This document shows positions 1,825 to 20,790 of a DNA stretch of 20,790 bases, one piece after another. Origin of the DNA: a virus; the IMG/VR virus record IMGVR_UViG_3300026473_000052, positions 1-20,790 of that record; one strand, 5' to 3'. The number at the start of each line of letters is the position of its first letter. Within the stretch, counting starts at the first letter, position 1. The notes under the pieces are model-generated. The model ran no database searches. It saw nothing but the letters and a program-made list of their open reading frames with translations, and had not been told where the DNA came from. The position numbers were made by a program, and so were the translations under genes.

Positions 1825-2235
1825 ATGATTGACCAACAACTATATCGCCAGCTAAGAGATCAGGGCCAGAACATCCAGCTTGATGCGCCCCCAGAACCCG
1901 ACCATTCTAAGCCCATGGATCGCCGCACGATAGTAGAACAAGTGGGTCCTGTACAGGTCAATGGACAGTGGCATCTACAGTGGCAGACTAGAACTATCAC
2001 TGCACAAGAACGAGTAAGTAGGCTCGCAGAAGACACCCTGGCCACACGCAGTCAACGTGACAAGTTCCTTAGAGAAAGTGACGTCTATGTACTACCAGAT
2101 CGCTGGGCACAGATGACCACACAGCAACAGCACTCTTGGACTGCATTCCGTCAGGCCCTGAGAGATCTACCTTCGCAGCCAGGATGGCCCTATGACATCA
2201 CATGGCCCACACACCCTCGAGGCACCTACGCATGA
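1825..2235 (+). CDS. Phage tail assembly chaperone-like protein (136 aa)
   Basis: The C-terminal half (about 75-129) matches the pattern of the phage tail assembly chaperone family (Phage_tail_APC type): an R-D-x-x-L-x-E-S-D element, then LPD, a W-x-x-x-R-Q-A-L-R-D-L-P helix, and QPGWPYDITWP. In known phages this domain is carried by small proteins encoded beside tail-fibre genes that help fibres fold or attach. The N-terminal half (Gln-rich, with an EQVGPVQVNGQWHLQW stretch) fits the beta-rich region that often precedes it. Its neighbour upstream is the collagen-like protein, a plausible client. Its stop overlaps the next start as ATGA. Confidence 0.8.
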   Translation: MIDQQLYRQLRDQGQNIQLDAPPEPDHSKPMDRRTIVEQVGPVQVNGQWHLQWQTRTITAQERVSRLAEDTLATRSQRDKFLRESDVYVLPDRWAQMTTQQQHSWTAFRQALRDLPSQPGWPYDITWPTHPRGTYA

Positions 2236-2474
2236 AAATCAACGAAATCATCAGAGAATCACTAGTAGACGAAGAACCCGCGAGCAGAGACCTTTGCCTA
2301 AGCGGTAAGCCAGACTCGGCCCTAGGTGCTAGCCAACTGGCTTCATGCAAGAGCCAGGGCTATCGTAGCCGTGATGGGGGCAAGAGCCACAAGGTAGGCT
2401 CAGAGCGCATCAAGGTCCGAGGAAAACGTATCAAGGGCAAGAAATACGGCGGCCCCTTACCAGACTGGAGTTGA
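2232..2474 (+). CDS. Small basic protein with capsid-targeting-like leader (80 aa)
   Basis: Begins MKINEIIRESLVDEE, an amphipathic leader with I-R-E|S at residues 7-10, which fits the T4 prohead protease rule ((L/I)-x-E followed by a small residue). The remainder contains a Cys-Lys-Ser-Gln segment and then a strongly basic tail (KVRGKRIKGKKYGGPLPDWS, about 61-80). By analogy with T4 internal proteins, a small basic protein with such a leader could be packed with DNA in the head and processed; this is inference. The start at 2232 (ATGA overlap with the upstream stop) is preferred to an upstream ATG at 2202 that would run inside the chaperone gene. Confidence 0.65.
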   Translation: MKINEIIRESLVDEEPASRDLCLSGKPDSALGASQLASCKSQGYRSRDGGKSHKVGSERIKVRGKRIKGKKYGGPLPDWS

Positions 2475-2480
2475 CAGATC

Positions 2481-3038
2481 ATGCATCTAGAACTAGGTGA
2501 TCTACTCATAGCACCCCCAAAGATGCCCGACCTACGTTTTAAAAAGTCAGTGATCATGCTGACACAGCAACACCAAGGGGGCTGGGCGGGCTTGACCATC
2601 AATAAACCCACACCTCATACACTGCTAGATCTAGCACGTGAAGTGGATCTTAATCTGCCCGAACGCATGAACTTTCCTCTGTACTGGGGTGGCCCTGTGA
2701 ACACCACTACAGTTTGGATGCTGCACAGTTCAGAGTGGTCCATGATGGAGACCATAGAGATCAACGAGCATTGGTCTATGACCAGCGATGAAAAGATGTT
2801 TGCCTGTGTGGCAGATGGTGACTACCCTCGACACTTTCGTTTTATGTTTGGGCTCTGTGCTTGGGCTCCAGAACAGTTGGAAGCAGAGCTACGTGGTAGC
2901 CCACCCTGGCATCACAGCTCTAGCTGGCTCATAGCTCGTGGTCCCAGCCCTGATTGGCTCTTTGAGCAGGATCCTGCGGATCTATGGTCTAACAGCACTG
3001 AGCTCTGTGGGCATCAGGCTGTGAATGCTTGGCTTTAG
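2481..3038 (+). CDS. YqgE/AlgH family protein (185 aa)
   Basis: Full length for the YqgE/AlgH (DUF179) family. Family features are visible in order: an N-terminal LLIAPPKMPD segment, F-K-K-S-V at 20-24, GLTINKP at 37-43 (bacterial members have GxxxNKP), YWGGPV at 68-73 followed by WMLHS, and a FGLCAWAPEQLEAEL stretch where bacterial proteins have GYAxWxxGQLExE. The cellular role is poorly defined; AlgH was named as a regulator of alginate synthesis. A phage copy could modulate the host or could be a cargo gene. Six bases separate it from the preceding gene. Its stop codon overlaps that of the convergent membrane-protein gene (TTAG, 3035-3038). Confidence 0.85.
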   Translation: MHLELGDLLIAPPKMPDLRFKKSVIMLTQQHQGGWAGLTINKPTPHTLLDLAREVDLNLPERMNFPLYWGGPVNTTTVWMLHSSEWSMMETIEINEHWSMTSDEKMFACVADGDYPRHFRFMFGLCAWAPEQLEAELRGSPPWHHSSSWLIARGPSPDWLFEQDPADLWSNSTELCGHQAVNAWL

Positions 3039-3298
3039 TGATCGCTGTTCTTGATAGTATCGAATAAGCGTTCGCGTTGTTCGCGATAACGATGCCAGCT
3101 TTCCATCAAGGGCTCTACCAAGAACCACTTGAAAATCCAAAATAAGAATATGGCCATGGCGCCCAAGTTGCAGTAGAGTCTGACGGGATCTTCAGTGAGC
3201 CAGCTGGTGATCAGCAGGCCCCAACCCACAAAGAAAGTCCACTGCCAAAACTTAAGGCCCTGTATGAGATGCAGGACCCATCCTAGAAATAACTTCAT
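3035..3298 (-). CDS. Small membrane protein with two predicted helices (87 aa)
   Basis: Two hydrophobic, Trp/Phe-rich segments at about residues 17-34 and 44-61 are separated by a short loop with E-D-P-V-R; the C-terminus is charged (SWHRYREQRERLFD) and probably cytoplasmic. No family is recognised. It is the last gene of a leftward operon: its ATG overlaps the stop of the 79-aa gene as ATGA. Small inner-membrane proteins in phages include holins, lysis regulators and superinfection-exclusion proteins, but nothing here distinguishes these, and no endolysin is adjacent. Confidence 0.7.
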   Translation of the reverse strand: MKLFLGWVLHLIQGLKFWQWTFFVGWGLLITSWLTEDPVRLYCNLGAMAIFLFWIFKWFLVEPLMESWHRYREQRERLFDTIKNSDH

Positions 3299-3534
3299 TT
3301 TACGCCTTTCAATCCATCCATGACCATCTTTTTGGCACGACGGTCCAGTTCAGCTTCTTCAGCACGTAGCATTTCAAAGCCCACCATGTTCATGAACTCC
3401 GCCAGCGCAGCCTTGCCTTCTTCAGTCCAATGACTATAGCCCGAGCCCACTGAGCTGTGATAGTAGTAGGTACGGTTTTTAAGCAGTTCTTGTATGCCAC
3501 CGTAGGTTAGGTCTTTGATAGCCTGTCGATCCAT
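3295..3534 (-). CDS. Conserved-looking unknown protein (79 aa)
   Basis: Begins MDRQAIKDLTYGGIQELL and contains a Tyr/Ser/His-rich centre (NRTYYYHSSVGSGYSHW, about 20-36) followed by a long charged helix (WTEEGKAALAEFMNM... to the end). I know of no function. The frame extends upstream to 3759, but that would overlap the ligase gene; the start at 3534, one base after the ligase stop and with an AAAGGTG upstream, is preferred. It sits directly behind DNA ligase in a coupled operon, so a role in DNA metabolism is possible but unproven. Confidence 0.65.
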   Translation of the reverse strand: MDRQAIKDLTYGGIQELLKNRTYYYHSSVGSGYSHWTEEGKAALAEFMNMVGFEMLRAEEAELDRRAKKMVMDGLKGVK

Positions 3535-3535
3535 T

Positions 3536-4873
3536 TTAGATTTTTTCACCTTTCGCAAAACCGCGGAATCGAAGGAATCTGGGGAACCGTAGCGAGTATA
3601 GGTCTTCACTATCTTGGCTCCTAGTCGCCGCATCCGCTCGGACTTCAATGACCTGACCCACGATGCTATCGGCTCGAAGCGTGTAGGCTTCCCAAAACTC
3701 TTTACGCTGGCTGTCACTGAATCCACTGCCCACGTTAACTGCGATACTCTTTCCATCATCTACACCTTCACATACTAGGGCACCCAAACGTCCTTGATTA
3801 CGGCCAGTGCCCTCTTCCACAGCCGTGACCGTCAATGTTACTTCGATATAGGGCTTTTGCTTGAGCCAGCTGGTGCTACGTTTGCACTCGTATTTGGCTT
3901 CAGGATCCTTGATCATGATGCCCTCGTAGCCCTCAGCGATCATCTGTTTGTTAAAGTCCTGGAACTCGATCTTGCCTACGAACTGATCTAGATCCACTTC
4001 GATCTGTGGAACGATAGTGATACAGCCTGCGTCAGCAAAGATGTTTTCAAAGCCCTTGAGGAAGTTAACACGGCGTCGCTGACCCATGGAGCTCTGACCC
4101 TGCTTGAACTCTACCAAAGGCACGATGTCAAAGAGATGTAGCACAGCATCACCGCTCTGCACATTGTCCTTGCGATGCACTTGCTTCATCAAATCCTGGA
4201 ATGTTTCGCTCATGACTTCACCGTCAAAGACAAAACTACGTCCAAAGTTGTCTAGGTTATCTTCAAAGGCCTTAACGATATGCGGAAAGTTAGCCAACTC
4301 TTTACCGTTGCGTGTGTACATGGTAACAGTACGGCTTTCAAAGTCTACTACAGTAAGACAGCGCACACCATCTAGTTTGCGTTGCAGGATCTTCTTGCCT
4401 GTGATCTTGCTTTCGTGATTGGCTCCGTCGTGTGCCAACATGCACTCAAACACAGGCACACGGTATTGAGTCAACCCCGTGTCCTTGGCCACGGAGTTTA
4501 CCGTCTTTTCTGAAACACCACAGCGCAGGTCTTTGATAAGGATACGTCGATACCAATCGTTCCATTGCTCTTTGGTAGCTACTGACATAGCCAGATTAAC
4601 AGCATCCCTAGCGGCATGCCCAGTAAGCCTACGGCGATATAGACTGTCCGCAAGCTCAATAAAGTTAGTCCAAGATAGTCCCTGTCCATCGTCTTCCTCT
4701 TTTACGGGCACCTGCTTGATGCCAAATGTATGTAGTTTGTCCAAGCACATACGCAGACCTTCGAAGAACTCATCGAGTCCTTCTTGCATGGCCTTGGCTA
4801 GGATAGCTTCTTTGGCCAGTCGTGAGTTGTCTGCTTCTAGTTGCTGGATGATAGTCTGTGGTTGTGTTCTCAT
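3536..4873 (-). CDS. ATP-dependent DNA ligase (445 aa)
   Basis: Seals nicks in duplex DNA with ATP. Nucleotidyltransferase motifs are in order: motif I K166-L-D-G-V-R with the adenylated lysine, motif III DGEV at 217-220, motif IV EGIMIKD at 317-323, and motif V around KRSTSWLKQK at 331-340. An N-terminal helical domain (1-140) and a C-terminal OB-fold domain (about 343-445) complete a T4 gp30-like layout, slightly shorter than the 487 residues of T4 ligase. ATG 4873 overlaps the upstream stop as ATGA. It probably joins Okazaki fragments and repairs nicks during phage replication. All catalytic motifs look intact. Confidence 0.92.
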   Translation of the reverse strand: MRTQPQTIIQQLEADNSRLAKEAILAKAMQEGLDEFFEGLRMCLDKLHTFGIKQVPVKEEDDGQGLSWTNFIELADSLYRRRLTGHAARDAVNLAMSVATKEQWNDWYRRILIKDLRCGVSEKTVNSVAKDTGLTQYRVPVFECMLAHDGANHESKITGKKILQRKLDGVRCLTVVDFESRTVTMYTRNGKELANFPHIVKAFEDNLDNFGRSFVFDGEVMSETFQDLMKQVHRKDNVQSGDAVLHLFDIVPLVEFKQGQSSMGQRRRVNFLKGFENIFADAGCITIVPQIEVDLDQFVGKIEFQDFNKQMIAEGYEGIMIKDPEAKYECKRSTSWLKQKPYIEVTLTVTAVEEGTGRNQGRLGALVCEGVDDGKSIAVNVGSGFSDSQRKEFWEAYTLRADSIVGQVIEVRADAATRSQDSEDLYSLRFPRFLRFRGFAKGEKI

Positions 4874-5229
4874 ACGATCACGTCTTTCGTAGTTTTACGG
4901 TTGCTAAAAACTTGATAAGAATAGTTTTCACGGACCCAATCTGCGAATCCTTGCGGGTCGCTGTCAGTCCAAATCTTTATTTCATTTAGACCGATATCTG
5001 CGGTGCTGGTAAACACATAGATCTCGTAGTGGCGATGACTATTCATCTGAGCCCGCATCACTAAGTGGCTGAGATTAAAACTTAGAGGCGCTTCGATTTT
5101 TTTAGAATACTTGATAGAATCAAACAGATGCTTCTTAGCCCAGTTGTCTGGGTGGCTGTCTGTGATTTCCTCGAGAAACTCAACACCGAGGTTGTCCCAG
5201 CTGACTAACCAATAGCGGGTATCTTTCAA
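4870..5229 (-). CDS. Unknown protein upstream of ligase (119 aa), TTG start
   Basis: Starts with TTG at 5229, supported by an AGGAGC ribosome site 5 nt away and a strong sigma70 promoter just upstream; no ATG lies nearby in frame. The protein begins (M)KDTRYWLVSWDNLGVEFLEE and has mixed alpha/beta character with no signal peptide or membrane segment. I do not recognise a domain. It is the first gene of the unit reading into DNA ligase, with an ATGA overlap, so it may belong to early DNA metabolism. Confidence 0.75.
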   Translation of the reverse strand: MKDTRYWLVSWDNLGVEFLEEITDSHPDNWAKKHLFDSIKYSKKIEAPLSFNLSHLVMRAQMNSHRHYEIYVFTSTADIGLNEIKIWTDSDPQGFADWVRENYSYQVFSNRKTTKDVIV

Positions 5230-5259
5230 GGTTGCTCCTAAAGTGTTAACTATGACAAT

Positions 5260-5288
5260 AGTATAGCACCTTAGAAGCAGTTTGTCAA
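5260..5288 (-). promoter_or_regulatory. Consensus sigma70 promoter for the ligase operon
   Basis: Reading leftward: -35 TTGACA (5288-5283), a 17-bp spacer, -10 TATACT (5265-5260), with transcription expected to begin near 5253, followed by an AGGAG ribosome site (5239-5235) and the TTG start at 5229. Such a perfect host-type promoter suggests early expression. The -35 box contains the TGA stop of the HNH gene. Confidence 0.85.
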
Positions 5289-5803
5289 CCCTCTATGCCC
5301 AACCAATCTCGCCAACTTGGATGAGCGATATGGTAACCCATTTTCTTACGTTTTTCTGCAAGTTCCCAGTAATCTGGCTTGTAGGGTTTGATTTTGGGCT
5401 TCATTTTGGTATGCGCAGCCTTTTCGTAGTTACAGCGTTTGCAGGCCGTAGTACTGTTATCCCAAGTGGTCTTACCACCCAGGCTGATTGGATGCACATG
5501 GTCCAAAGTGGCGTTTTCGCTTTGGCATTGTGTACCGCAGTATTGACAGATATAACGGTCACGCAGGAACACATTACGTTTACTCAAACGCACATAGTTT
5601 TTAGTCTTCTGATACTCTTTGAGCATCATGACCGCAGGGACGCGGGTCTCCCAACGAGCAGAACGAACGATCCAATCGTCGTACCAACTCATCACACGGA
5701 CCTTGTCCAGGACTAGATATCTGATCGCTTCTTGCCAATCTACAGTGCTAAGTGGTAGCAGGCTGACTGGCTGAGCGTCGGCATTTAATAGAAGTGTTGT
5801 CAT
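5285..5803 (-). CDS. HNH endonuclease (172 aa)
   Basis: Zinc-ribbon HNH nuclease: C86-x2-C89 (ICQYCG), then L-D101-H102-V-H-P-x-S-x-G-G, N116 in W-D-N-S, and C121-x2-C124. These form the beta-beta-alpha-metal site with structural zinc. The N-terminal half (NADAQPVSLLPLSTVDWQEA...) is typical of free-standing bacterial and phage HNH proteins of this class rather than of intron-encoded ones. The C-terminus is basic. Role could be DNA processing, packaging-related cutting or homing; no intron or interrupted gene is visible nearby. ATG 5803 has no clear ribosome site. Two leftward promoters, sigma70 and late-like, lie just upstream. Confidence 0.9.
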   Translation of the reverse strand: MTTLLLNADAQPVSLLPLSTVDWQEAIRYLVLDKVRVMSWYDDWIVRSARWETRVPAVMMLKEYQKTKNYVRLSKRNVFLRDRYICQYCGTQCQSENATLDHVHPISLGGKTTWDNSTTACKRCNYEKAAHTKMKPKIKPYKPDYWELAEKRKKMGYHIAHPSWRDWLGIEG

Positions 5804-5820
5804 GATTTGCTACTTTTGAG

Positions 5821-5826
5821 TATTTA
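5821..5826 (-). promoter_or_regulatory. Late-promoter-like TAAATA upstream of HNH gene
   Basis: Leftward GTTAAATAC, 17 nt before the HNH start codon. It resembles the T4-type late -10 element and lies downstream of a sigma70 promoter for the same gene, so early and late expression may both occur. Confidence 0.4.
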
Positions 5827-5838
5827 ACTACAAGATTC

Positions 5839-5867
5839 ATTATATACTCATATATTGCTGAAAACAA
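5839..5867 (-). promoter_or_regulatory. Sigma70 promoter for the HNH gene
   Basis: Leftward -35 TTGTTT (5867-5862), 17-bp spacer, -10 TATAAT (5844-5839). It is divergent from the clpP promoter, whose -35 begins at 5891. Confidence 0.65.
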
Positions 5868-5890
5868 GAGCCTTTTGAGATAAAATATAG

Positions 5891-5919
5891 TTGACGTGTC
5901 CAAGTTGCCACATTATACT
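5891..5919 (+). promoter_or_regulatory. Sigma70 promoter for clpP-cupin
   Basis: -35 TTGACG (5891-5896), 17-bp spacer, -10 TATACT (5914-5919); transcription expected near 5926, giving a 5' leader of about 23 nt with AAAAAGGAAAG before ATG 5949. Close to consensus, so probably an early promoter read by host RNA polymerase. Confidence 0.8.
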
Positions 5920-5948
5920 AATACAACTTACAACAAAAAGGAAAGACT

Positions 5949-6539
5949 ATGAGTTTGATTCCAATGGTTATCGAAACTACCAGCAAGGGTGAGCGTGCCT
6001 ACGATATCTACAGTCGCTTGCTCAAAGAACGGATCATCATGTTGAATGGTCCTGTAGAAGATAACATGGCTAATACTATCGTAGCACAGTTGCTATTCTT
6101 AGAAAGTGAAAATCCTGATCAAGACATCAGTTTGTTTATTAACAGTCCTGGCGGTGTTATCACAGCAGGTATGGCTATCTATGATACCATGCAGTTTATT
6201 AAGCCAGACGTAGCAACCTATGTAATGGGTCAAGCCTGCTCAATGGGCAGTTTCCTTGCACAGGCAGGAGCCAAAGGTAAAAGGTTTATGTTGCCCTATG
6301 CACGTCATATGATCCACCAACCATCGGGAGGTGCTCGTGGTATGCAGAGCGATATCGAAATCCAATACAAAGAGATCACTAAGATGAAAACTATCTTAAC
6401 TGAGCTCTATGTCAAGCACAATACTGCGGGCAAGACCTATCAAGACTTTGAACGTGACATGGATCGTGATACGTTTATGTCAGCAGAAGAAGCCAAGGCC
6501 TATGGTCTAGTAGATCAAATCATCGATCGGAGACCATAA
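5949..6539 (+). CDS. clpP: ATP-dependent Clp protease proteolytic subunit (196 aa)
   Basis: A complete ClpP-type serine protease of normal length. The catalytic triad is visible: S98 in GQACSMGS, H123 in MIHQPSGG, and D174 in MDRDTFMS. The INSPGG loop (65-69) and DIEI helix are conserved. ClpP forms a double heptameric barrel that degrades proteins fed by ClpX or ClpA. No ATPase partner or propeptide-type extension is present, so the phage protein would have to use host Clp ATPases or join mixed barrels. Phage ClpP genes are known and may act in head-protein processing or host-protein turnover. A strong sigma70 promoter precedes it, and its TAA shares a base with the next ATG. Confidence 0.95.
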
Positions 6540-6931
6540 TGGATCTAGGAAGAATAGAAAGAGGTTGGGGATTTGAAATCCTTTGGTGCAACAATGAAAA
6601 GTATAGCGGCAAGCTCTTAGTCTTTGAACGTGCAGGCGCTAAGACTAGCATGGTCTATCACAGCGAACGTAGAAAGAGCTGGTTCATTAATGAAGGCACA
6701 TTTAAACTAAACTTTGTTGATACCAAGACTGGCGAACATAGAGAGATAGAACTTCAGACAGGCAGTGCCTTTGAAGTAGCGCCTTTGAGTCCACATCAAC
6801 TAACTTGCCTTAGCGATAGCGGCATTATCTTTGAAGTGGGAACCACTGAAAACGGAGAGGATCGTTATCGTATTAGTCCCGGTGACTCTCAAACACGGCA
6901 ACCAGCGCAGTTACCAGATCCTCAATCATAG
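6539..6931 (+). CDS. Cupin-fold protein (130 aa)
   Basis: Small single-domain cupin resembling the C-terminal domain of mannose-6-phosphate isomerase/GDP-mannose pyrophosphorylase. Motif 1 runs from H41-S-E43 through K46 to N51-E52-G53; motif 2 is G75 ... P82 ... P85-H86. It begins [16 protein letters not shown], like the KPWGxEI start of many sugar-isomerase cupins. Some usual metal-binding His are replaced, so catalysis is uncertain; sugar binding is a fair alternative. It is coupled to clpP by TAATG, with CGGAG as ribosome site. Its last 59 bases overlap the convergent hemA gene, and its C-terminal tail (Gln/Pro-rich) is encoded in that overlap. Confidence 0.8.
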
Positions 6932-8078
6932 AATCATTATGGAATGGTGTAGGTGCAAAGCGTAAACGCTCTGTGCCTACGTCCACAGTAGGATAGTTGA
7001 TTGGCTGCACATAGATATTGTGTTCTGCTAACAGCATATCACTCATTGACTTACACTTCTTAGCATCACCTACAAGCACAGGAACGATGTGAGTAGTAGA
7101 GCATTCCATAACAGGAATACCTGCTACCTTTAGTCTGTGTTTGAGTTTACGAGCACGTTCTTGATGTTTCTCTCGTATCTCATTATGATCCTTGAGATAC
7201 TTCACAGCAGCTAGGGCACCTGCACAGGCCACAGGACTCATGCTGGTAGTAAAGATGAATCCAGCTGCCACTGAACGTATGGCATCGATGACGTCACTAT
7301 CGGCAGCAATATAGCCGCCTTGGACTCCATAGGCTTTGCCTAGTGTACCATTGATTATATCAATCCTAGACTCCAATCCTAGTTCTTCTACTTTACCGCC
7401 ACCGTGGGCGCCATAGAGTCCTACCGCGTGTACTTCATCAATATAGGTCATGGCATGATACTTGTCTGCGAGATCGCAGATCTCTTTGATCTTGCCTACA
7501 TCACCATCCATAGAATAAACTGACTCAAATACGATACAAGGAACATGACCAGTTAACTGGGCGTTGACTAGTTTATCTTCTAGGTCAGCCATGTCATTGT
7601 GCTTGAATACCTGTTTAGATGCCTTGCTGTGACTGATACCAACGATGATCGAGTTGTGATTATTCTCATCGCTGATGTATTGTATGTTAGGAATGATCTT
7701 AGCTAGTGCGATAAGAGTCCATTCGTTGGCCACATATGCACTGCTGAACAACAGTGCTCGCGCCTTATTGTGTAGTAGTGCTAGCTCGTGTTCTAGAGCT
7801 ACGTGATAGTGGCTGGTACCGCCGATGTTGCGTGTACCGCCCGAACCTGATCCTGTATGATCTAAGGCTGTGTGCATAGCGTCTAAGACAACTTTGTGCT
7901 GACCCATGCCAAGGTAATCGTTGGAGCACCAGTTTACGATGTTCTTGATATTGTAAGGACCATACCATAATGCTGTGGGAAACTTGCCTCGCTCACGCAC
8001 GATGTCGTTAAAAACACGATATTTTCCGTTTTCTTTTAGTCCTGCAAGCAGTTCTGTAAAGGGTTTTTTATCTATCAT
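6873..8078 (-). CDS. hemA: 5-aminolevulinate synthase (401 aa)
   Basis: Condenses glycine and succinyl-CoA to 5-aminolevulinate, the first step of tetrapyrrole synthesis by the C4 route, using PLP. Diagnostic features: WCSNDYLGM at 50-58, [12 protein letters not shown] at 81-92, D214 and H217 in [12 protein letters not shown], and the PLP lysine K248 in NGTLGKAYG. These positions coincide with those I recall for Rhodobacter ALAS. Full length and intact. WCSNDYLGM and the [12 protein letters not shown] context favour ALAS over the related AONS and KBL enzymes. ATG 8078 has AAAGGTG upstream. The C4 route is used by alphaproteobacteria, so a host from that class is likely. Presumably an auxiliary metabolic gene that raises haem or other tetrapyrrole supply. 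Confidence 0.95.
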
Positions 8079-8095
8079 CCTGCACCTTTCTACGC

Positions 8096-8101
8096 TAAAT
8101 A
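8096..8101 (+). promoter_or_regulatory. Late-promoter-like TAAATA, rightward
   Basis: GCTAAATATT, 7 nt before ATG 8109, in the 30-bp gap between divergent genes. Matches the core of the T4-type late element, though the very short distance to the start codon reduces confidence. Confidence 0.35.
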
Positions 8102-8108
8102 TTGTACT

Positions 8109-8333
8109 ATGGATATTATTAAAATCGATGTACCTTTATTTATTCGCTTGTTAGAACTGGCTCGCGAAGATATCAAAGACGACCGCGACATACACGATGT
8201 TGCTGAAATCGTTATCAAGCTATCGCAGCACAGTCCAGTGACTATGGAAGATTATCCTGCGATCTTAAAGTTCATGAACAGCATCGATCAAGCTGATGAA
8301 GTTAGTGATATTAAAAAGTTGAGTGGACTATGA
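8109..8333 (+). CDS. Small conserved-looking phage protein (74 aa)
   Basis: Starts [25 protein letters not shown] and is almost wholly alpha-helical and acidic, ending KKLSGL. It resembles small proteins common in large marine and freshwater phages, but no function is known to me. It begins the long rightward structural-gene block, 30 nt from the divergent hemA start, and overlaps the next gene as ATGA, so the two are probably co-translated. Confidence 0.7.
8137..8144 (-). promoter_or_regulatory. Late-promoter-like element for hemA
   Basis: Leftward AATAAATA (8144-8137) inside the start of the divergent gene, 58 nt before the hemA ATG. A reasonable match to ATAAATA late elements with a normal leader length. 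No good sigma70 promoter was seen for hemA. Confidence 0.4.
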
Positions 8334-8647
8334 GAGCAACAGAAATAATCAGAGATCTATTAGATCTTATAGACAACATTGATGCAGGCGTGGAAGTTGA
8401 AAAACCACAAGCCATTTCTGCGGATGTAGCTATCGCAGGTCAGCCTGCAGACATCAACCATTTCAAACAGATCATCGATCTTGTTCAAGAACCAGAAGTA
8501 GATCCTACATTTGCCAACGAACCTAATGAACAGTATGCTTCAATAGATGCGGTGACAACAAACGCAGGCGGAGGAGTCAATGGTCCTAAACAGGCAGCTG
8601 ATCTCCGTGGCAACAGTTTTAGAATATATCCCGGGGAGAGAAACTGA
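8330..8647 (+). CDS. Small protein with targeting-like N-terminus (105 aa)
   Basis: Begins [18 protein letters not shown], an amphipathic helix resembling the leaders of the 2232 and 20300 proteins, but with Asp rather than Glu at the expected cleavage position, so processing is doubtful. The middle is acidic and disordered-looking (QEPEVDPTFANEPNEQY); the C-terminal part has TTNAGGGVNGPKQAADLRGNS and a final RIYPG. I do not recognise a domain. It is coupled on both sides: ATGA with the 74-aa gene and TGATG with the adhesin-like gene. It may be a virion component. Confidence 0.65.
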   Translation: MRATEIIRDLLDLIDNIDAGVEVEKPQAISADVAIAGQPADINHFKQIIDLVQEPEVDPTFANEPNEQYASIDAVTTNAGGGVNGPKQAADLRGNSFRIYPGERN

Positions 8648-9339: not shown

Positions 9340-9342
9340 TAG

Positions 9343-11081: not shown

Positions 11082-11091
11082 GGAGCGAATC

Positions 11092-11727: not shown

Positions 11728-11740
11728 TAAAGGATGATAA

Positions 11741-13380: not shown

Positions 13381-13384
13381 ATAC
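13376..13384 (+). promoter_or_regulatory. Late-promoter-like GATAAATAC
   Basis: Matches ATAAATA-type T4/cyanophage late elements fully. It overlaps the stop of the upstream gene and ends 4 nt before ATG 13388, so it could drive only a nearly leaderless message for that gene or a longer message for later ones. Confidence 0.4.
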
Positions 13385-13387
13385 AAG

Positions 13388-14266
13388 ATGAGATTAGAAA
13401 GCTGTCAACTATTTGCTCGACTATGTGAATCTACTCTAGTAGAAGCTAGTAGCACATTAGACATGGTCAAAGGGCATCCAGGCGCACAACAGACTGTGCA
13501 GTATCTTCACACCAAGATGGGTCTATCACACGACCAACAATATCAACCAATACCTAAGATCCTTTGGAATGATCTTAAATCTAACTACAAAGGCACATGG
13601 GTATTGATCAAAGGAGCCACAGGCACGGGTGCTATCAAGTATGATGGTCGTTCATATACAGCAGTAGCTAGTGCAGGCGGCGAACCAGCAACAAAAACAG
13701 ATGATCGTGGCGGAAACATATTAGATTTCCTAAAAGGACAGATCGGTAATCCTAAGAGTTATAAGTTCTTTACAGGTAAAGAGCAAGGCAAAGTCAAAGA
13801 CGTACAACGCAAACGTCAAGAGCTACGTGGCACAAGCTCGCCTACAGAAATGAATCAAGAAAAACTTTTGACAAAGTTTCGACCACTATGGGTTAAAGCA
13901 ATGAACGCCGCCATAGCCGATGTCAAAGGACACGTAGCCAATCAAATCAAGAATGATGCTTTTGAAAAAGCCAAACATAAACTAGAACACATACAACGAT
14001 TACAGAATGGAATCGATGCTCTAGAAGTCGGAGGAGATACTCCTGGATTCTTAAACACTGCCATAAACTCAGCAGTACTAATGGCCGCATCACATTACTA
14101 TCCAGATGAAACTGGCGAAATCACACGCAGCAGATACGGCAGTGGTAGTTACAGTTCACAGTTTCCAGAAGGACCACAGAAACTATTAAAAGATATTTCA
14201 TCTGGTGATACTAGCAAGATAGGAACGATATTGGCATTCTTTAAGAGGAGTTTGATTTCAGGATGA
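13388..14266 (+). CDS. Unknown protein, possible head-internal (292 aa)
   Basis: ATG 13388 is chosen over an upstream start at 13352 because the latter would sit inside the previous gene. The N-terminus (MRLESCQLFARLCESTLVEA) is amphipathic and has two (L/I)-x-E|small sites, L-C-E|S at 12-15 and L-V-E|A at 17-20, so it may be a longer targeting leader. The rest is mixed: a Gly-rich KGATGTGAIKYDGRSYT segment at about 72-88, a DFLKGQIGNPKSYKFF segment, a long helical charged part (about 150-225), and SHYYPDE near the C-terminus. No family is known to me. It is coupled to the next gene by ATGA. Confidence 0.65.
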   Translation: MRLESCQLFARLCESTLVEASSTLDMVKGHPGAQQTVQYLHTKMGLSHDQQYQPIPKILWNDLKSNYKGTWVLIKGATGTGAIKYDGRSYTAVASAGGEPATKTDDRGGNILDFLKGQIGNPKSYKFFTGKEQGKVKDVQRKRQELRGTSSPTEMNQEKLLTKFRPLWVKAMNAAIADVKGHVANQIKNDAFEKAKHKLEHIQRLQNGIDALEVGGDTPGFLNTAINSAVLMAASHYYPDETGEITRSRYGSGSYSSQFPEGPQKLLKDISSGDTSKIGTILAFFKRSLISG

Positions 14267-15375
14267 AACTAAAACAAATATTCGAAGCCAATGTTGCTGC
14301 CAAGATCAAAGATCCCAAGATGATCAAGATGATCGGTATCGCTATGCGACACGATCACACTATTCCAAAACATCTAATAGGCAAGCTAGGACCTAAGCCT
14401 ACAGACGAACAGATCGTAAAGCTATGGAGCGATCTATTAGACCAGAGCCTAAGAGCCACAGACTACGGCGATGTTTCTGCCGACGGCAAGTTTGATGAAT
14501 GGTTAACTCGTTTATATGTAAACGGACAACTAGATTATGAAGACGTCAACGGTGAAGGTGGAGATGCACTAGGTGCATGGAAAGCTCTAAGTATACGCGG
14601 TAGACTAAAAGAAAAAGATCAAGATTTTAACAGATTCAAAAGCCTAAGACAGATACAGAACATCGTTCGTGATCGCGATTATCAAAACGAACTACGTAGA
14701 ATCAAAGACGCAGAAGTCATTGAAAAACACAAGCGCGAAAAGAAAGAAATCACACTGATCGACGATGATCGTTTCCTAGTAACTGTTCCTATGAACTATG
14801 GTTCATGTTATACATTCAACAACGAACACGGATACCAAGCAAGTTTCTGTACAGGATCTAGCTCGGGACTTCAATGGTTTAATCGTTACGCCGATGACGG
14901 CCCTATCGTTAGTATCTTTGACAAACAAAACGCAGACGATGTCAACGGTAAGTGGCAGATGCATGCCCCAACTAACCAGTTGAACAACGGTAACCAGACT
15001 GTGCGCAGTGATGAAAGATTCTCTGAACTATTTCCTGGGTTGATGAAACGCATCGTTGCAGCTATTGAACAGAAAGGCGAAGAAATCAAATCTAACAGCA
15101 CAGGTATAGTATCAGGTGGGTATGATATTGCACAGAGTGTTGCTGATATTAAACGCAGATTCCCATTATCATACGCCAGCGAAGCTCCTAAAGCCGACAA
15201 AGAAGAAGGCGACTCTAACGATGGTGAAGGTACCTGGTTAGTCACACATACTCAAACAGGACGTACAGCACGTATCCCTGCAGAAAGCAGAGATGATGCA
15301 CAACAAAAACTTCTAGCAAGACATCCAAATATTAACTTAGACGACTTCACGTTTGAACTACAACGAGAAGAGTAA
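14263..15375 (+). CDS. Conserved phage protein with targeting-like leader (370 aa)
   Basis: Begins MKLKQIFEANVAAK with I-F-E|A at 6-9, fitting the prohead protease rule. Residues about 10-150 are helical and basic. The central domain (about 170-265) has a distinctive pattern: VPMNYGSCYTFNN, YQASFCTGSSSGLQWF, DGPIVSIFD, a GKWQMHAPTNQL segment and an LFPGLMKRI helix; I recall similar segments in uncharacterised large-phage proteins, without a known function. Two cysteines, in GSC and FCTG, may be functional. A C-terminal appendage (WLVTHTQTGRTARIPA and following, about 324-370) looks like a separate small domain. The last of three coupled genes. No enzymatic class can be assigned. Confidence 0.75.
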   Translation: MKLKQIFEANVAAKIKDPKMIKMIGIAMRHDHTIPKHLIGKLGPKPTDEQIVKLWSDLLDQSLRATDYGDVSADGKFDEWLTRLYVNGQLDYEDVNGEGGDALGAWKALSIRGRLKEKDQDFNRFKSLRQIQNIVRDRDYQNELRRIKDAEVIEKHKREKKEITLIDDDRFLVTVPMNYGSCYTFNNEHGYQASFCTGSSSGLQWFNRYADDGPIVSIFDKQNADDVNGKWQMHAPTNQLNNGNQTVRSDERFSELFPGLMKRIVAAIEQKGEEIKSNSTGIVSGGYDIAQSVADIKRRFPLSYASEAPKADKEEGDSNDGEGTWLVTHTQTGRTARIPAESRDDAQQKLLARHPNINLDDFTFELQREE

Positions 15376-15378
15376 GAA

Positions 15379-15463
15379 CACCCTACCTTAGGACGTTATG
15401 CGTTACAGGGTGGCCCGGCTGCTGGGCTGGAACGGAGTAGGAGTCGTGCCCGAGGACCGTTCC
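15379..15463 (+). ncRNA. Candidate structured RNA between phage genes
   Basis: A GC-rich island in an otherwise AT-leaning genome with three successive stems: CACCCT/AGGGTG (15379-15384 with 15407-15412), GCCC/GGGC (15413-15416 with 15424-15427, 7-nt loop), and a perfect 7-bp GGAACGG/CCGTTCC (15429-15435 with 15457-15463). The first and third have large loops that could hold further structure. No U-tract follows, so it is not a standard terminator. The late-type promoter for aceA lies downstream, so the element is either a separate RNA, the 3' end of the upstream message, or a leader on read-through transcripts. No Rfam family was matched with confidence. A 22-codon frame (15398-15466) with AGGA 5 nt upstream also crosses it. 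Confidence 0.45.
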
Positions 15464-15494
15464 TAAAGTGAGCATCATTCTCTTGTGCAGAGCC

Positions 15495-15503
15495 ATAAAT
15501 ACT
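15495..15503 (+). promoter_or_regulatory. Late promoter for the aceA operon
   Basis: ATAAATACT is the best rightward match in the window to the T4-type late element. Transcription would begin near 15507, leaving a short leader with TAAGGAG before ATG 15524. The box is flanked by AGCC (15491-15494) and GGCT (15505-15508), which may be chance. Confidence 0.6.
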
Positions 15504-15523
15504 AGGCTTTTAAGGAGATATGA

Positions 15524-16732
15524 ATGAAGAAGCGTAACTACACACAAGACACAGTCCGTAAACTACAAGGCTCTGTGCAAATAGAGCATACACTAGCTAA
15601 ACGTGGTGCCACAAAACTACGTGAGCTATTAGCGACAGAACCCTATGTCGCAACGCTAGGAGCATACAGCGGCCAACAGGCTGTTCAACATGCCAAAGCA
15701 GGACTAAAAGCGATTTATCTATCAGGTTGGCAAGTGGCTGCTGCTGCTAATACAGCTAATCAAGTATACCCAGACCAAAGTCTATACCCAGTAAATTCAG
15801 TACCAACGATTGTTAAACAGATTAACAATGCATTCCGTCGTGCTGATCAGATTGAATATTCAGAAGGTAAAGTAGAAACAGATTACTTTCTACCAATCGT
15901 AGCAGATGCTGAAGCGGGATTCGGCGGAGCACTAAACGCATACGAACTAATGTCAGCGATGATCGAAGCAGGCGCAGCCGCAGTACATTTTGAAGATCAA
16001 CTATCTAGCGAAAAGAAATGTGGGCACTTAGGCGGCAAGGTTCTAATCCCAACTAGCCAAGCTATTCGTAACTTACAGGCTGCAAGGTTAGCCGCAGATG
16101 TGGCAGGAGTTGACACAGTTATTCTAGCACGTACAGATGCAGAATCGGCAACACTTATCACTAGCAATCACGATCCATTGGACAAGGATTTTATTATCGA
16201 TGAACGCACTGAAGAAGGTTTTTACAAGTTTAAAAATGGGCTTGATGCATGTATTAGGAGAGGTCTTGCTTATGCCCCTTACGCTGATCTCTTATGGTTC
16301 GAAACTAGTACACCTGATATTGCACAGGCTAAGAAATTCGCCGATGCTATACATGCTGAGTTTCCAGACCAAATGTTGGCTTATAACTGCTCTCCTAGTT
16401 TTAACTGGCGTAAGTTTTTATCTGTAGATGAATGCGAAACTTTCCAACGTGAACTAGGCGAACTAGGATACAAGTTCCAGTTCATCACACTTGCAGGATT
16501 CCATAGTGTTAACCTAGCAACATTTGAACTTGCAGAAGCCTACAAGCAACGTGGTATGGCTGGTTATTCAGAAATGCAGGAACGTGAGTTTGCCGCACAG
16601 GAACGCGGCTTTACTACTGTCAAACATCAACGCGAAGTTGGCGTAAGCTACTTTGATTTGATCAGCGAAGCAGTAGGAGCTACAAGCACAGTAGCTAATA
16701 AATCTTCAACAGAGGCAGATCAGTTTCACTAA
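15524..16732 (+). CDS. aceA: Isocitrate lyase (402 aa)
   Basis: Splits isocitrate to succinate and glyoxylate, the first reaction of the glyoxylate shunt. Family signatures: [10 protein letters not shown] (127-135) with the Mg-binding D128, [10 protein letters not shown] (164-173) with catalytic C166, LARTDAE (201-207), and NCSPSFNW (288-295). The C-terminal STEADQFH matches the usual isocitrate lyase tail. KKCGH separates it from methylisocitrate lyase. Slightly shorter than the roughly 430-residue bacterial enzymes, but no catalytic block is missing. ATG 15524 has TAAGGAG upstream; an out-of-frame ATG lies at 15520. First gene of a coupled operon with hydrolase and desaturase, behind a late-type promoter, so expressed probably during virion production. 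An auxiliary metabolic gene that would spare carbon and feed biosynthesis. Confidence 0.95.
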
Positions 16733-17316
16733 TGATAGTTTATATCCACGGAGCGAGTGCGACAGCTGAGAGCTTTACGCACATTAGGCAGTATGTTAGA
16801 GATACATTTGAAGAACCCGACATAATGCTCGAGTATAAGAGCCATGATGGGTTCTTCAACAATCTCGAAAAGATGAAAGGCCAGCTTGATGATGCCGACA
16901 GACTGTTCTTTATCAGTCATAGTCTAGGCGGTATCTATAGTTTATATTTGGCCCATCATTATAAAGAAACTACCAAAGGAGGTGTCAGTTTAAGCACTCC
17001 TTATGCTGGCAGCGAACAAGCAGATTTTGCCAAATACTTCTTACCATTTAACAGGTTGATGAAGGATGTTGGTACTATGAGCGAACCGATGATGGAAGCT
17101 CGTCATTTGCCTGCGCCTCCTAACTGGACACAGGTAGTAACAACTGCTGGACAGAGCCCGTGGATAAGTGAACCCAACGACGGAGTGGTCACGTTAAATA
17201 GTATGCGATCACGCAAAGACTTTGAAATAGTCGAGATGGAGTTAAATCATTACGAAGTGGTTATCAGTGACAGAGTAGTTGATTTGATTATAAACAGGAT
17301 AAAACGATCACTATGA
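16732..17316 (+). CDS. Alpha/beta hydrolase (194 aa)
   Basis: Compact alpha/beta hydrolase fold with an oxyanion-loop YIHGAS at 4-9, nucleophile elbow SHSLGG (62-67) with S64, and plausible D150 (EPNDGVV) and H173 (LNHYEVV) completing the triad. No signal peptide, so cytoplasmic. The SHSLGG elbow and GGVSLSTPYAG stretch resemble lipase/esterase or acyltransferase-like members, but the substrate cannot be told; ester-bond cleavage of lipid or storage polymer would fit the neighbours. TAATG overlap with aceA and ATGA overlap with the desaturase make a tight operon. Confidence 0.85.
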   Translation: MIVYIHGASATAESFTHIRQYVRDTFEEPDIMLEYKSHDGFFNNLEKMKGQLDDADRLFFISHSLGGIYSLYLAHHYKETTKGGVSLSTPYAGSEQADFAKYFLPFNRLMKDVGTMSEPMMEARHLPAPPNWTQVVTTAGQSPWISEPNDGVVTLNSMRSRKDFEIVEMELNHYEVVISDRVVDLIINRIKRSL

Positions 17317-18023
17317 TAGAATTGATATACACTTTAATAATGACACACATAACCATTATGTGTGTTACTTTGTTTTTGCACAGAGCACAAGCACATAGAG
17401 CAGTAACTTTTCATCCAGCCGTTGAGCATTTTATGCGATTCTGGTTATGGCTAACAACCGGTATGGTAACAAAACAATGGGTAGCTATACATCGTAAGCA
17501 TCACAGATTCAGCGATGAAGATGGTGATCCACACAGCCCCCACGTATATGGAATATGGCGTGTGTTTAGTCAAGGAGCATTATTGTATCATGAAGCATCG
17601 AAAGATAAAGATATGGTCGATACATACGGTGTTGGTACTCCTGCTGATTGGTTGGAGCTTCACTTATACCAGCCTCACAGTAGACTTGGCATTGGCATTC
17701 TCCTTGTGCTCAACACCTTGATCTTTGGATGGTGGGGATTGTTGGTATGGGGTATACAAATGATATGGATTCCATTTTGGGCCGCAGGAGTAATAAACGG
17801 CCTAGCACATTGGTGGGGGTATAGAAATGGAACGACACGTGATTATAGTCGTAATATTGTGCCTTGGGGCATTGTTATTGGTGGAGAAGAGTTGCACAAC
17901 AACCACCACTTGGAACCAGCGAGTGCCCGCCTCTCTCAGAAGTGGTGGGAGTTTGATATAGGTTGGCTCTATATAAAGATATTAGAGTCAGTAGGACTAG
18001 CAAGATTAAGAACTACCACATAA
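17313..18023 (+). CDS. Fatty-acid desaturase, membrane di-iron type (236 aa)
   Basis: Inserts a double bond into acyl chains using O2 and a di-iron centre. Three His boxes are present: H23-RAQA-H28 (HX4H), H60-RK-H63-H64, and H195-NN-H198-H199, plus H166 in NGLAHWWGYRN. Hydrophobic segments at about 5-21, 37-53, 124-141 and 143-161 fit the four-helix membrane arrangement. It resembles the short delta-9 acyl-CoA or acyl-lipid desaturases of bacteria. At 236 residues it is shorter than many family members, but all His boxes are there. Last gene of the aceA operon, followed by a strong terminator. Probably remodels host membrane lipids during infection; supply of oxygen and electrons would come from the host. 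Confidence 0.92.
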   Translation: MIELIYTLIMTHITIMCVTLFLHRAQAHRAVTFHPAVEHFMRFWLWLTTGMVTKQWVAIHRKHHRFSDEDGDPHSPHVYGIWRVFSQGALLYHEASKDKDMVDTYGVGTPADWLELHLYQPHSRLGIGILLVLNTLIFGWWGLLVWGIQMIWIPFWAAGVINGLAHWWGYRNGTTRDYSRNIVPWGIVIGGEELHNNHHLEPASARLSQKWWEFDIGWLYIKILESVGLARLRTTT

Positions 18024-18054: not shown

Positions 18055-18065
18055 TTTCTACCAAT

Positions 18066-19184: not shown

Positions 19185-19213
19185 TTGACACAGCCAAATC
19201 TTTTGTTTAAACT
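19185..19213 (+). promoter_or_regulatory. Sigma70-type promoter for the 19256 operon
   Basis: -35 TTGACA (19185-19190) is perfect; after a 17-bp spacer the -10 is TAAACT (19208-19213), a 4-of-6 match. Transcription would begin near 19220, 36 nt before the first ATG. Confidence 0.55.
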
Positions 19214-19227
19214 AAAACGTATTTGAG

Positions 19228-19235
19228 TTAAATAC
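19228..19235 (+). promoter_or_regulatory. Late-promoter-like TTAAATAC
   Basis: Lies 20 nt before ATG 19256, downstream of the sigma70-type promoter, so the same operon could also be switched on late. The match lacks the second base of ATAAATA. Confidence 0.35.
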
Positions 19236-19255
19236 AATAACGACTCGGAACAGCA

Positions 19256-19540
19256 ATGAAAGTAAAAACTAGATCAATATTACAAGAGCTTAATGAGTTA
19301 GCAGAAGTTCGAAACAAGGATGCCCTGTATGAAAGCAGAGCAACCAATATCATCAACTCTGCTATCAATCTGCTAGAAAGCATTCATAAGGCCTACGACC
19401 CAGAAATGGCAGATGAGCTAGAACGTCGCTTTATCAATGCTATCAAAGGTGCAGATCCTGCTAAGTTCACCCGCGGAATACGCAAGATATCAGAATCTCG
19501 CAAAGCAAAAAGAAAACTAGAAGAATCAAACAATGAGTGA
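19256..19540 (+). CDS. Charged helical small protein (94 aa)
   Basis: Begins MKVKTRSILQELNELAEVRN; essentially all alpha-helix and highly charged, with a basic C-terminal tail (RKAKRKLEESNNE). A basic N-terminus followed by an amphipathic helix with L-Q-E and L-N-E makes it a weak member of the targeting-leader group. No family is recognised. The last 8 bases overlap the next gene, so it is probably co-expressed with the nucleotidyltransferase-like protein and may be its small partner. Confidence 0.65.
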   Translation: MKVKTRSILQELNELAEVRNKDALYESRATNIINSAINLLESIHKAYDPEMADELERRFINAIKGADPAKFTRGIRKISESRKAKRKLEESNNE

Positions 19541-20303
19541 CTTACTATTTGAAGGCGGCAATATCTTCAAAGATGATGCCGGTACAGTTCTAACAGTACG
19601 CATTAATAAAGCGGACGTTCTGCCCACAGTACAGTGGCTAGAAAAAGTTACAGGACTTGAACTTACTGATAACATGCTAGGAACGACTGGCAAAAAAGAA
19701 ACCAGTGGAGATCTAGATCTAGCTGTAGATGCTAATGCTGTAAACAAAAATGAGTTCGCACAACGTCTTATGGACTACATTGCCAAGGACGGTGGTAATC
19801 CAAAAGAATGGGTTAAGAAAAGCGGTATATCTGTACACTTCAAAACTCCTATCAAAGGTAATCCAGATAACGGATTCGTACAAGCAGACTTTATGTTTGG
19901 TGAACCATCGTGGCTTCGCTGGAGCCTACAAGGCGGCAAAGAAGGCAGCGAGTTAAAAGGAAGCCATAGACACGTATTGTTAGCAAGCATAGCCAAAGCA
20001 CGTGGTATGAAGTGGAGTCCTAACAATGGATTAATGAGTGGCGACGGCAAAGAACTTATTACCAAAGATCCAAACGAAATAGCTAAGAAGCTGCTAGGAC
20101 AAACAGCTAGTCCTAAGAATCTACAAGATCCAGAAGCTGTAATCGATTATATCATCAAGCTACCTAACTACGAAGAGCTAGTCGCAGATGCTAGAGAAAC
20201 ACTAGGAAGAGAAGGATTGAAACTTCCAGAGGCAGGCAAGGTAGAAAGTTTTGTACCAGGAACTGGCGCATGGTTCCGTAGGATGATAGAGATTATTAAA
20301 TGA
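19533..20303 (+). CDS. Nucleotidyltransferase-like protein, polymerase-beta type (256 aa)
   Basis: Residues 50-66 (GTTGKKETSGDLDLAVD) fit the polymerase-beta-type nucleotidyltransferase signature: a Gly-rich turn followed by D60-x-D62 for two metal-binding carboxylates. A third Asp, D119, lies on a strand (FVQADFMFGEP) as in such enzymes. The rest includes a LRWSLQGG segment, a KGSHRHVLLASIAKARG helix likely to follow the core, and a C-terminal helical part (about 165-256). Nucleotide, acceptor and biological role are unknown. The N-terminus also has L-F-E|G at 5-8. Start 19533 overlaps the preceding stop by 8 nt, and its TGA overlaps the next gene as ATGA. Confidence 0.7.
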   Translation: MSDLLFEGGNIFKDDAGTVLTVRINKADVLPTVQWLEKVTGLELTDNMLGTTGKKETSGDLDLAVDANAVNKNEFAQRLMDYIAKDGGNPKEWVKKSGISVHFKTPIKGNPDNGFVQADFMFGEPSWLRWSLQGGKEGSELKGSHRHVLLASIAKARGMKWSPNNGLMSGDGKELITKDPNEIAKKLLGQTASPKNLQDPEAVIDYIIKLPNYEELVADARETLGREGLKLPEAGKVESFVPGTGAWFRRMIEIIK

Positions 20304-20790
20304 GAGCTTTTGAGTTTTTAACAGAAGATCTAGCTCCCTCTGCTCCTAAGAAAGTCGGCCGAGAGTTCAACCATCTAGAAGATCTAGTATTCACAGAACC
20401 TCGTGGTGCTTTACGTGCTGTCAGCGTATTAAAGAATATTTCAGCTGATGCCAAAAACATCAGCATCAAGTGGGATGGAAATCCTACAGTATATTGGGGT
20501 AGAGACGAAGACGGTACCTTCCGTATGGTTGGCAAGAACAACTGGGGTCGTGAAGAAGGGCGCAGTTCTAGTCCAGAAGAACTTAAACAGTTTATCATGA
20601 GTCGCGGCAAAGGCGAGGACTGGCGTGAAAAGTTTGCTGGTGATATGGCCAGCCTATGGCCTATATTCGAACGTGCTACGCCTAAAGACTTCCGTGGTTA
20701 TATCTACGGAGATATCTTATTCCATCCAGGCAAACCCTACGAAGGTCGTGATGGTAAACTAATCTTTACTCCTAACCAAACTACCTATGA
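20300..20790 (+). CDS. Ligase-fold nucleotidyltransferase-like protein, 3' end cut off
   Basis: Open to the end of the window (163 residues seen, C-terminus missing). Starts MRAFEFLTEDLAP, a targeting-leader-like sequence with L-T-E at 7-9 but Asp after it. Then ISIKWDGNPTVYWG (54-67) matches motif I of covalent nucleotidyltransferases (K57-x-D-G), and YIYGDILF (134-141) is where motif III lies in RNA/DNA ligases and capping enzymes. The gap between them is long and contains a KNNWGREEG turn. This suggests an RNA- or DNA-ligase-like enzyme, but motifs IV and V are beyond the window, so the class is open. ATG 20300 overlaps the upstream stop as ATGA. Confidence 0.65.
   Translation, partial: MRAFEFLTEDLAPSAPKKVGREFNHLEDLVFTEPRGALRAVSVLKNISADAKNISIKWDGNPTVYWGRDEDGTFRMVGKNNWGREEGRSSSPEELKQFIMSRGKGEDWREKFAGDMASLWPIFERATPKDFRGYIYGDILFHPGKPYEGRDGKLIFTPNQTTY

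Follow-up and report, generated by a model that had tools for sequence, protein, structure and literature searches.

In bacteriophage T4, the internal proteins IPII and IPIII start with a leader of about 10 residues, the capsid targeting sequence (CTS), whose last three residues are hydrophobic-x-Glu. According to the available text of PMC9026906, the prohead protease gp21 cuts after L/I-x-E, residues 4 and 7 of the CTS serve targeting and residues 8 and 10 serve processing, and the CTS may serve T4-like phages for loading a variety of proteins; the known T4 cargo given there consists of three small internal proteins and Alt. The same text describes many head proteins of phiKZ and SPN3US, including inner-body and ejection proteins, that are cut after Glu by a gp21-like protease, some from propeptides with several redundant sites. 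Since both the rule and the suggestion come from that source, the mechanism is known and its spread was anticipated. Here I analyzed a 20.8-kb virus fragment, IMG/VR record IMGVR_UViG_3300026473_000052 (the whole stretch of 20,790 nucleotides is called the window), in which a first-pass annotation had read such leaders on six genes. Genes are named by their first nucleotide, features are listed in Table 1, and an arrow marks a predicted cut. The leaders are very probably T4-type CTSs with gp21-type processing; the leaders themselves are seen in the sequence, and I infer packaging and cutting from it.

All six N-termini were found in the sequence, and the start codons of 2232, 8330, 14263, and 20300 overlap with the upstream stop codon as ATGA. 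A leader ending in hydrophobic-x-Glu, with a boundary kept in the homologues, was confirmed for 2232, 12568, 13388, 14263, and 20300, while 8330 lacks the Glu and was excluded as a cleaved leader. The leaders are 8 to 15 residues long. That of 12568 was said to match the T4 leader in length and cut position, and it does so position by position, with hydrophobic or aromatic residues at 4, 7, and 8 and Glu at 10. Residue −3 of the sites is L, I, V, M, or F as in T4, whereas phiKZ sites read S/A-x-E (PMC9026906, available text). The tandem sites of 13388 are comparable to the redundant propeptide sites of phiKZ and SPN3US.

The behavior of the leaders in homologues, where the boundary Glu is kept and the leader drifts, is the strongest evidence for this reading. 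Homologues were counted over tblastn hits, excluding those cut at a contig end. All 42 aligned rows of 14263 have E-A-N, and the boundary motif is present in 108 of 109 hits, although the leader length varies from MKLKQIFE to MKLNQFFHYDILAE and MKLSQIFLDQEILDE. All but one of the 43 rows of 20300 have E9 (boundary motif in 126 of 133 hits), and the rest of the leader varies, as in MRAFEFLTE, MRFWELLLE, and MRAWELLVE; the residue after the cut, Asp in the window, is Ala in 27 of 43 rows. E14 and E19 of 13388 are invariant in 44 of 44 rows, and the strict two-Glu pattern was found in 83 of 103 hits. Nine of ten distinct N-termini of the 12568 family read MK[TSA]F[RK][DN]YLxE, the tenth (the L175 group) has no leader in frame, and 24 of 32 hits have the boundary motif. 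The 2232 family is represented by 5 hits. A very short leader was also found on 19533, with E-G-G in 43 of 43 rows and the boundary in 137 of 142 hits. The variability of the residue before the Glu, compared with the Glu itself, is 2.84 bits (among the most variable leader positions) versus an invariant Glu in 14263, 1.52 versus 0.16 in 20300, 1.77 versus 0 in 19533, and 2.16 versus 0 at the second site of 13388.

These alignments were made from non-redundant picks. The 14263 alignment has 42 rows from 45 picks, the window replacing L003; L080, L078, and L023 were dropped, of which L080 and L023 keep E-A-N and L078 is cut off. For 20300, 43 of 44 picks were used, and the dropped L132 bears the leader MRAYEIITE. 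For 19533, there are 43 rows from 45 picks, the window replacing L004; L116 and L125, both without Glu, were dropped. The 13388 alignment has 44 rows from 45, the window again replacing L003, and L089, cut at a contig end, was dropped. In the predicted structures, residues 1-8 of 14263 and residues 1-20 of the 20300 product have a predicted local distance difference test score below 50, and the ordered part begins after them. Since disordered termini are common and the models have no control, these values can only be called consistent with the leader reading. In the 14263 model, good structural alignment was confined to a small domain at the C-terminus (49 residues, best Z 5.2); such a poor match of a predicted model is no evidence of a new fold.

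The first-pass annotation had tied its reading to the presence of a gp21-type protease in the genome. None was found among the genes of the fragmentary window, but the near-identical sister record G001 (147 kb), the closest long record with 99.6% identity over positions 1-16733, has a Peptidase_S77 gene (PF03420, the T4 gp21 family). Gene sets and gene starts were called throughout by a simple in-house script. Among the 20 records of the first set, Peptidase_S77 was found in five, G001 to G005 (E 6e-25 to 8e-27); these five are all at least 147 kb long, and it was not found in the other fifteen, which are at most 83 kb. In a second set of ten records, it was present in T4, KVP40, S-RIM32, and P-SSM2 and was not found in T5, SPO1, or four more uncultured records including G026. 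All of G001 to G005 also have a Gp23-type capsid protein, whose propeptide ends with KYL[AS]E↓[AS] in the context KYL[AS]E↓[AS]ATAGATSAGN. In G001, KYLAE↓AATAGATSAGN lies in the region of the T4 site FLTE↓AEIGG, where the alignment is gapped. The gene order there is protease, scaffold-like protein (so labelled by position only), and capsid protein. Thus, G001 to G005 probably cut their own capsid protein after L-x-E.

A genome-wide search for such N-termini, which the first-pass annotation had proposed, was performed with the strict pattern M-[KR]-x(1-5)-hydrophobic-hydrophobic-x-E, derived from the window leaders and T4. It matched 5 of 133, 10 of 303, 13 of 395, 5 of 179, and 9 of 171 genes in G001 to G005, respectively, or 42 of 1181 genes in total versus 3.40 expected from internal positions (Poisson P ~5e-31). 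In 1000 shuffles, the observed count was never reached for G001, G002, G003, and G005 and was at most equalled for G004. Seventeen of the 42 genes belong to window families, including two of the window's own genes in G001, and 25 to other families. The same pattern picked three of 241 T4 genes, ipII, ipIII, and gp61.1 (ipI was not picked), and 0 of 317 genes of T5 and SPO1 versus 1.18 expected. In the relatives, [LIV]-x-E-[ASGTN] occurs 2.39 times as densely at residues 5-14 as it does past residue 40 (121/11810 versus 1198/279390, p=2e-16); the ratio is 1.47 in four T4-like isolates (p=0.0015) and 1.19 in T5 plus SPO1 (p=0.26). Thus, the leaders are enriched in the gp21-bearing relatives and not in T5 and SPO1.

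What do these leaders carry? In T4 the known cargo is three small internal proteins and Alt, whereas here the leader stands on many larger and unrelated bodies. One is the 20300 product, whose G003 homologue matches Pfam DUF6267 (E 7.9e-20). The ligase-like motif noticed in the first pass is K57-W-D-G, with all four residues invariant in 43 rows, which I take to be the nucleotidyl-lysine motif (motif I, K-x-D-G) of ligases. All 50 structural matches listed for the predicted model are RNA, DNA, or tRNA ligases or complexes containing one. The best, the N. gruberi RNA ligase, has Z 6.5 over 180 aligned residues with a root-mean-square deviation of 4.7, and a Z under 8 may reflect a common arrangement. 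Foldseek gave no match for the model at E<=0.001, and the PDB sequence profile of the protein found no ligase. With Z below 8 and no Foldseek match, the ligase reading draws on the motif and a consistent but middling fold, and the protein probably has a ligase-type fold. An ordinary DNA ligase gene also exists in the window; the DUF6267 protein would then be a second, different enzyme.

The gene 19533 encodes a candidate nucleotidyltransferase (NTase). S58-G59-D60-x-D62 and D119 are invariant in 43 rows; the D-x-D and third Asp are presumably a Pol-beta-type NTase motif. None of the 43 members matched an NTase model of Pfam, and no NTase was among the 10 families listed at E<=1. A second NTase-like gene was found in 16 loci, between the 19533-type and ligase genes or within the block, and its product carries the leader MRAFEFLNE in the loci read; the two NTase-like families have a weak profile match from the D-x-D to the third Asp. 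Of 132 loci with the NTase, 121 also have the ligase. The 16 gene arrangements listed (175 loci, which overlap and are hence not independent) all fit the order p12568-p13388-p14263-p19256-NT1-(NT2)-LIG.

This order resembles that of the RlaP NTase and RNA ligase that form repair pairs in jumbo phages, as described in the available text of PMC7824862: an NTase-like gene is followed by a ligase-type gene, suggesting nucleotide restoration and then sealing. Two differences are that 19533 matches no Pfam NTase model and that here the ligase, and possibly the NTase, bear head-targeting leaders. Such enzymes would therefore act before phage genes are expressed, earlier than the jumbo-phage pairs. 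Polyvalent proteins, as far as the available text of PMC5512222 describes them, are likewise predicted to be injected with DNA and have Pol-beta NTases among their domains. They are multidomain chains of 2 to 15 domains, whereas here every body is encoded by a gene of its own and carries its own removable tag.

Are the tagged proteins delivered, or are they mainly structural or scaffold parts of the head, such as core proteins consumed in assembly? The latter is the most durable alternative. The gene 19256 matches a PHROG of virion structural proteins, and so does a leader family outside the window. This family occurs in all five relatives, with MKTFKEYLTE↓S in G001 and G004 and the called start MSMKTLKDYLTE in G003; the G004 member matches phrog_14802 'virion structural protein' (E 1.7e-10) and, weakly, phrog_2667 'internal head protein' (E 2e-4). 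E. coli phage 121Q has a homologue annotated as 'structural protein' that starts with MNRLQQILTE↓K, and the one in PBECO4 is annotated as 'virion structural protein'; both links to the virion are annotations. In addition, a glycine/alanine-rich leader protein lies near the head genes in G001, G004, and G005, and T4 core proteins are also gp21 substrates (PMC9026906, available text). On the other hand, the ligase motifs and the probable ligase-type fold of the DUF6267 protein, as well as the NTase-like motifs of 19533, would be unusual for a scaffold. Mainly structural roles are unlikely, although they retain some weight. The available text of a virion study of the cyanophage S-SM1 (PMC3037559) reports 41 proteins, with gp21 among the newly detected ones and 18 hypothetical proteins.

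Another possibility is that the leaders are docking helices only, which bring proteins uncut to the scaffold, the capsid, or another phage structure, the Glu being part of the binding face. In T4, Asp at residue 10 permits targeting and blocks processing (PMC9026906, available text), and hence targeting and cutting are separable. The 8330-type leaders, which keep a helix without Glu, would suit this possibility. Among 20 distinct N-termini of that family, 13 have the helix; Glu is at residue 9 in 0 of 13 and Asp in two. Of the seven remaining N-termini, the six loci read upstream proved to be the neighboring 8109-type protein, which shares a short RRFRQIVDL-like stretch. Docking alone does not account for the Glu of 14263, kept with A-N in every aligned row while the leader length and the preceding residue vary, for the L-x-E↓A/S boundary shared with the capsid protein of the same phages, or for the presence of a gp21-family protease. 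I regard it as quite improbable.

Besides the 8330 family, several observations weigh against T4-type targeting and cutting. Strict patterns miss the motif in 8 of 32 hits of 12568 and 20 of 103 hits of 13388. Three 19533 loci outside the alignment (L116, L125, and L126) start with MSGN[IV]FK without Glu, one residue of L126 being unread. The G004 leader family has a homologue in Pseudomonas phage Paride that starts with MKSFRDYYDASKRK and lacks L-x-E. Neither PF03420 nor Gp23 was found in G026, a 169-kb record that may be a fragment. The four T4-like isolates are only modestly enriched (11 of 1014 genes versus 3.42 expected), and S-RIM32 is almost without leaders (1 of 165), so that a gp21-type protease alone does not predict many leaders. 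When the Glu of the strict pattern was swapped, the five relatives together gave 20 matches for A, 19 for D, 12 for K, 9 for S, and 5 for Q versus 42 for E. Thus, the pattern minus the Glu is itself common at N-termini, and Glu is about twofold above the next residue, which is not an absolute difference. A looser pattern matched 27 of 133 genes in G001 versus 13-15 by chance. A mere coincidence of common N-terminal composition in phage genes (Met-Lys starts and amphipathic helices) has in its favor that the motif is short, that [LIV]-x-E plus a small residue is a frequent sequence throughout, at 0.43-0.50% of internal positions, and that the place of the Glu is not seldom taken by another residue. 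It is nevertheless hardly credible: 42 leaders were observed versus 3.40 expected, no shuffle surpassed the observed count, and the Glu is deeply conserved within families. The comparison phages lacking gp21 were two, T5 and SPO1.

The earlier interpretation of T4-type targeting, packaging, and gp21 cutting is thus supported. In this mechanism, the amphipathic leader would bind the scaffold core during head building and bring the protein into the prohead. The gp21-family protease would then cut after hydrophobic-x-Glu, and the mature protein would stay in the head with the DNA. Delivery of the tagged proteins to the next host together with the genome is likely, by analogy with the T4 internal proteins and Alt. 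The cargo would be large and mixed, comprising the block from 12568 through 13388, 14263, 19256, and one or two NTases to the DUF6267 ligase, and scattered small proteins.

In many DUF6267 homologues, the leader site and a second [LIV]-x-E site enclose a small module. Such paired sites flanking a mini-module are a further difference from T4. One module (module a) reads KWSxKYKxSINCSNPKGFSQKAHCAGRKK, with a net charge of +7 for one 35-residue copy. Related loci contain it in 22 distinct contexts; hydrophobic-x-Glu directly precedes it in 21, and another hydrophobic-x-Glu starts 8-9 residues past the last Cys in 17. In the remaining contexts, four read TNE and one stops at the module end. Two further inserts, one Cys-rich and one basic, end with V-T-E↓A. 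The second NTase-like protein and a short basic one likewise begin with a leader and module a. Another module (module b) is the stand-alone product of 2232 behind its leader, with a net charge of +10 from RDLC onward, and forms the tail of a leader-bearing protein of 159-168 amino acids in G002, G004, and G005, with the joints VSE↓A, VSE↓E, or ITE↓E. Modules a and b matched no Pfam or PHROG family at E<=1. Seventeen named cyanophage records match the leader plus module a, and two of them were read: Bellamy_122 starts with MKSFKQFQE↓SWSNKYKKSIDCSNPKGFSQKAHC, and SSM2_108 of Synechococcus phage S-SM2 starts with MKTLKQFLKE↓T and ends with FRE↓SWSNKYKKSIDCSNPKGFSQKAHC. In the simplest reading, cutting by the head protease at both predicted sites would free the modules as basic peptides, which parallels the way core proteins are fragmented by gp21 in T4.

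I considered a bolder scheme, which is doubtful at present. One or two Pol-beta-type NTases and the DUF6267 ligase might travel in the head as a repair kit and enter with the DNA, so that tRNA cut by the host, or nicks in the incoming DNA, are mended ahead of any phage gene expression. The head protease might also serve as a polyprotein processor freeing basic Cys/His mini-peptides, with cassettes swapped among unrelated cargo.

The neighbors of the module-a genes, SSM2_109 and Bellamy_123, were considered as DUF6267 relatives and rejected, as they have no K-W-D-G; SSM2_109 matched Pfam DUF192 and DUF6321. At 707 amino acids (L322:2620-4743), SSM2_109 looks like small modules, Cys-rich and basic, strung together; its 12 PHROG matches at E<=0.001 are all to families of unknown function. 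Separately, two proteins of 86 amino acids, L211 (G003:174382-174642, minus strand) and that at G002:266291 (minus strand), have the leaders MKISDILRE and MKIQEIIE, respectively, joined to a near copy of the capsid arm just past the cut site (ATAGATSA..). T4 gp61.1 (MKTFKEFIKE↓DMVAGDSGGNPENISIGTTSGAV) resembles the same design relative to gp23. Judging from these sequences, the two proteins are possible mimics of the capsid arm.

Literature searches, covering listings and the available text of the papers cited here, found no description of a large enzyme-bearing tagged set in this group, of the ligase assignment of DUF6267, or of the cassette architecture. DUF6267 gave no match in the literature, and 'capsid targeting sequence' combined with 'cyanophage' returned the T4 review only. 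The mechanism is known, and the cargo and architecture are new as far as these searches reach. Uncultured virus contigs are rich in relatives of 14263 (98 confirmed stretches) and 19533 (145), and gave 16 stretches for 12568 and 3 for 13388. Against named phages, the window DNA gave no match by megablast, nor did the 19256-20300 region by blastn. The window proteins compared with named phages by tblastn were 20300, 14263, 13388, and 9343; the first three gave no match and 9343 matched 175 records. At E<=0.01, 12568, 13388, and 14263 had no Pfam or PHROG match, and PDB sequence profiles of four families gave nothing or matches of chance-like quality.

The remaining window genes are given at the end of Table 1. 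The sequence diverges abruptly from G001 at position 16733, where the isocitrate lyase gene ends; this suggests a recombination or assembly breakpoint. Among 80 isocitrate lyase loci kept from a search of genomes, the best 22 have 56-68% identity with actinobacterial and proteobacterial names mixed, which is uninformative for host inference. The aminotransferase-fold product presumably resembles 5-aminolevulinate synthase. The GLEYA/PA14 protein, encoded directly upstream of a phrog_1645 virion protein, is a possible adhesin.

Table 1. Features of the window and their coordinates
Feature	Coordinates	Strand	Description
Window	1-20,790		Record IMGVR_UViG_3300026473_000052; virus fragment, 20.8 kb
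2232	2232-2474	+	MKINEIIRE↓S leader plus basic mini-protein, module b (ASRDLCLSGKPDSALGASQLASCKSQGYRSRDGGKSHK..KKYGG)
8330	8330-8647	+	Amphipathic N-terminus MRATEIIRD; not supported as a cleaved leader by homologues
12568 leader	12568-12597	+	MKTFRDYLLE↓A of a 270-residue protein (12568-13380); closest to the T4 IPII/IPIII leader
13388 leader	13388-13444	+	MRLESCQLFARLCE↓STLVE↓A; tandem sites FARLCE↓S and TLVE↓A; 292-residue protein (13388-14266)
14263 leader	14263-14286	+	MKLKQIFE↓A of a 370-residue protein (14263-15375)
19256	19256-19540	+	phrog_11854 'virion structural protein'; conserved SILQE, later L-x-E↓S; gene-block marker, processing uncertain
19533	19533-20303	+	Pol-beta-like nucleotidyltransferase candidate (SGDLDLAVD ... 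VQADFMF); very short leader MSDLLFE↓GG
20300 leader	20300-20326	+	MRAFEFLTE↓D of DUF6267 protein, running off the window at 20790; 372 residues in L084
K57-W-D-G motif	20468-20479	+	In DUF6267 protein; invariant in 43 aligned rows
AlgH-like protein	2481-3038		
DNA ligase	3536-4873		Ordinary DNA ligase
ClpP	5949-6539		
Aminotransferase-fold enzyme	6873-8078	-	Class I/II
GLEYA/PA14 domain protein	8647-9339		
DNA/RNA endonuclease	11741-12568		Non-specific
Isocitrate lyase	15524-16732		Phage-borne; PF00463, E 5.6e-102
Fatty-acid desaturase	17313-18023		

With the leader as a guide, the proteins that are probably head-loaded and delivered by an uncultured phage can be read from its sequence alone. 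Searching whole genomes for it yields, in a well-populated uncultured T4-like group, a short list of candidates for early action, several of them without a Pfam or PHROG match. A probable ligase and a candidate NTase among them would make sense as a first-minute counter-defence. With the cassette architecture, the T4 head protease would not only trim proteins but also release peptides. Since the leader and module a are present in at least two cultured Synechococcus phages, S-SM2 and Bellamy, the idea is directly testable.

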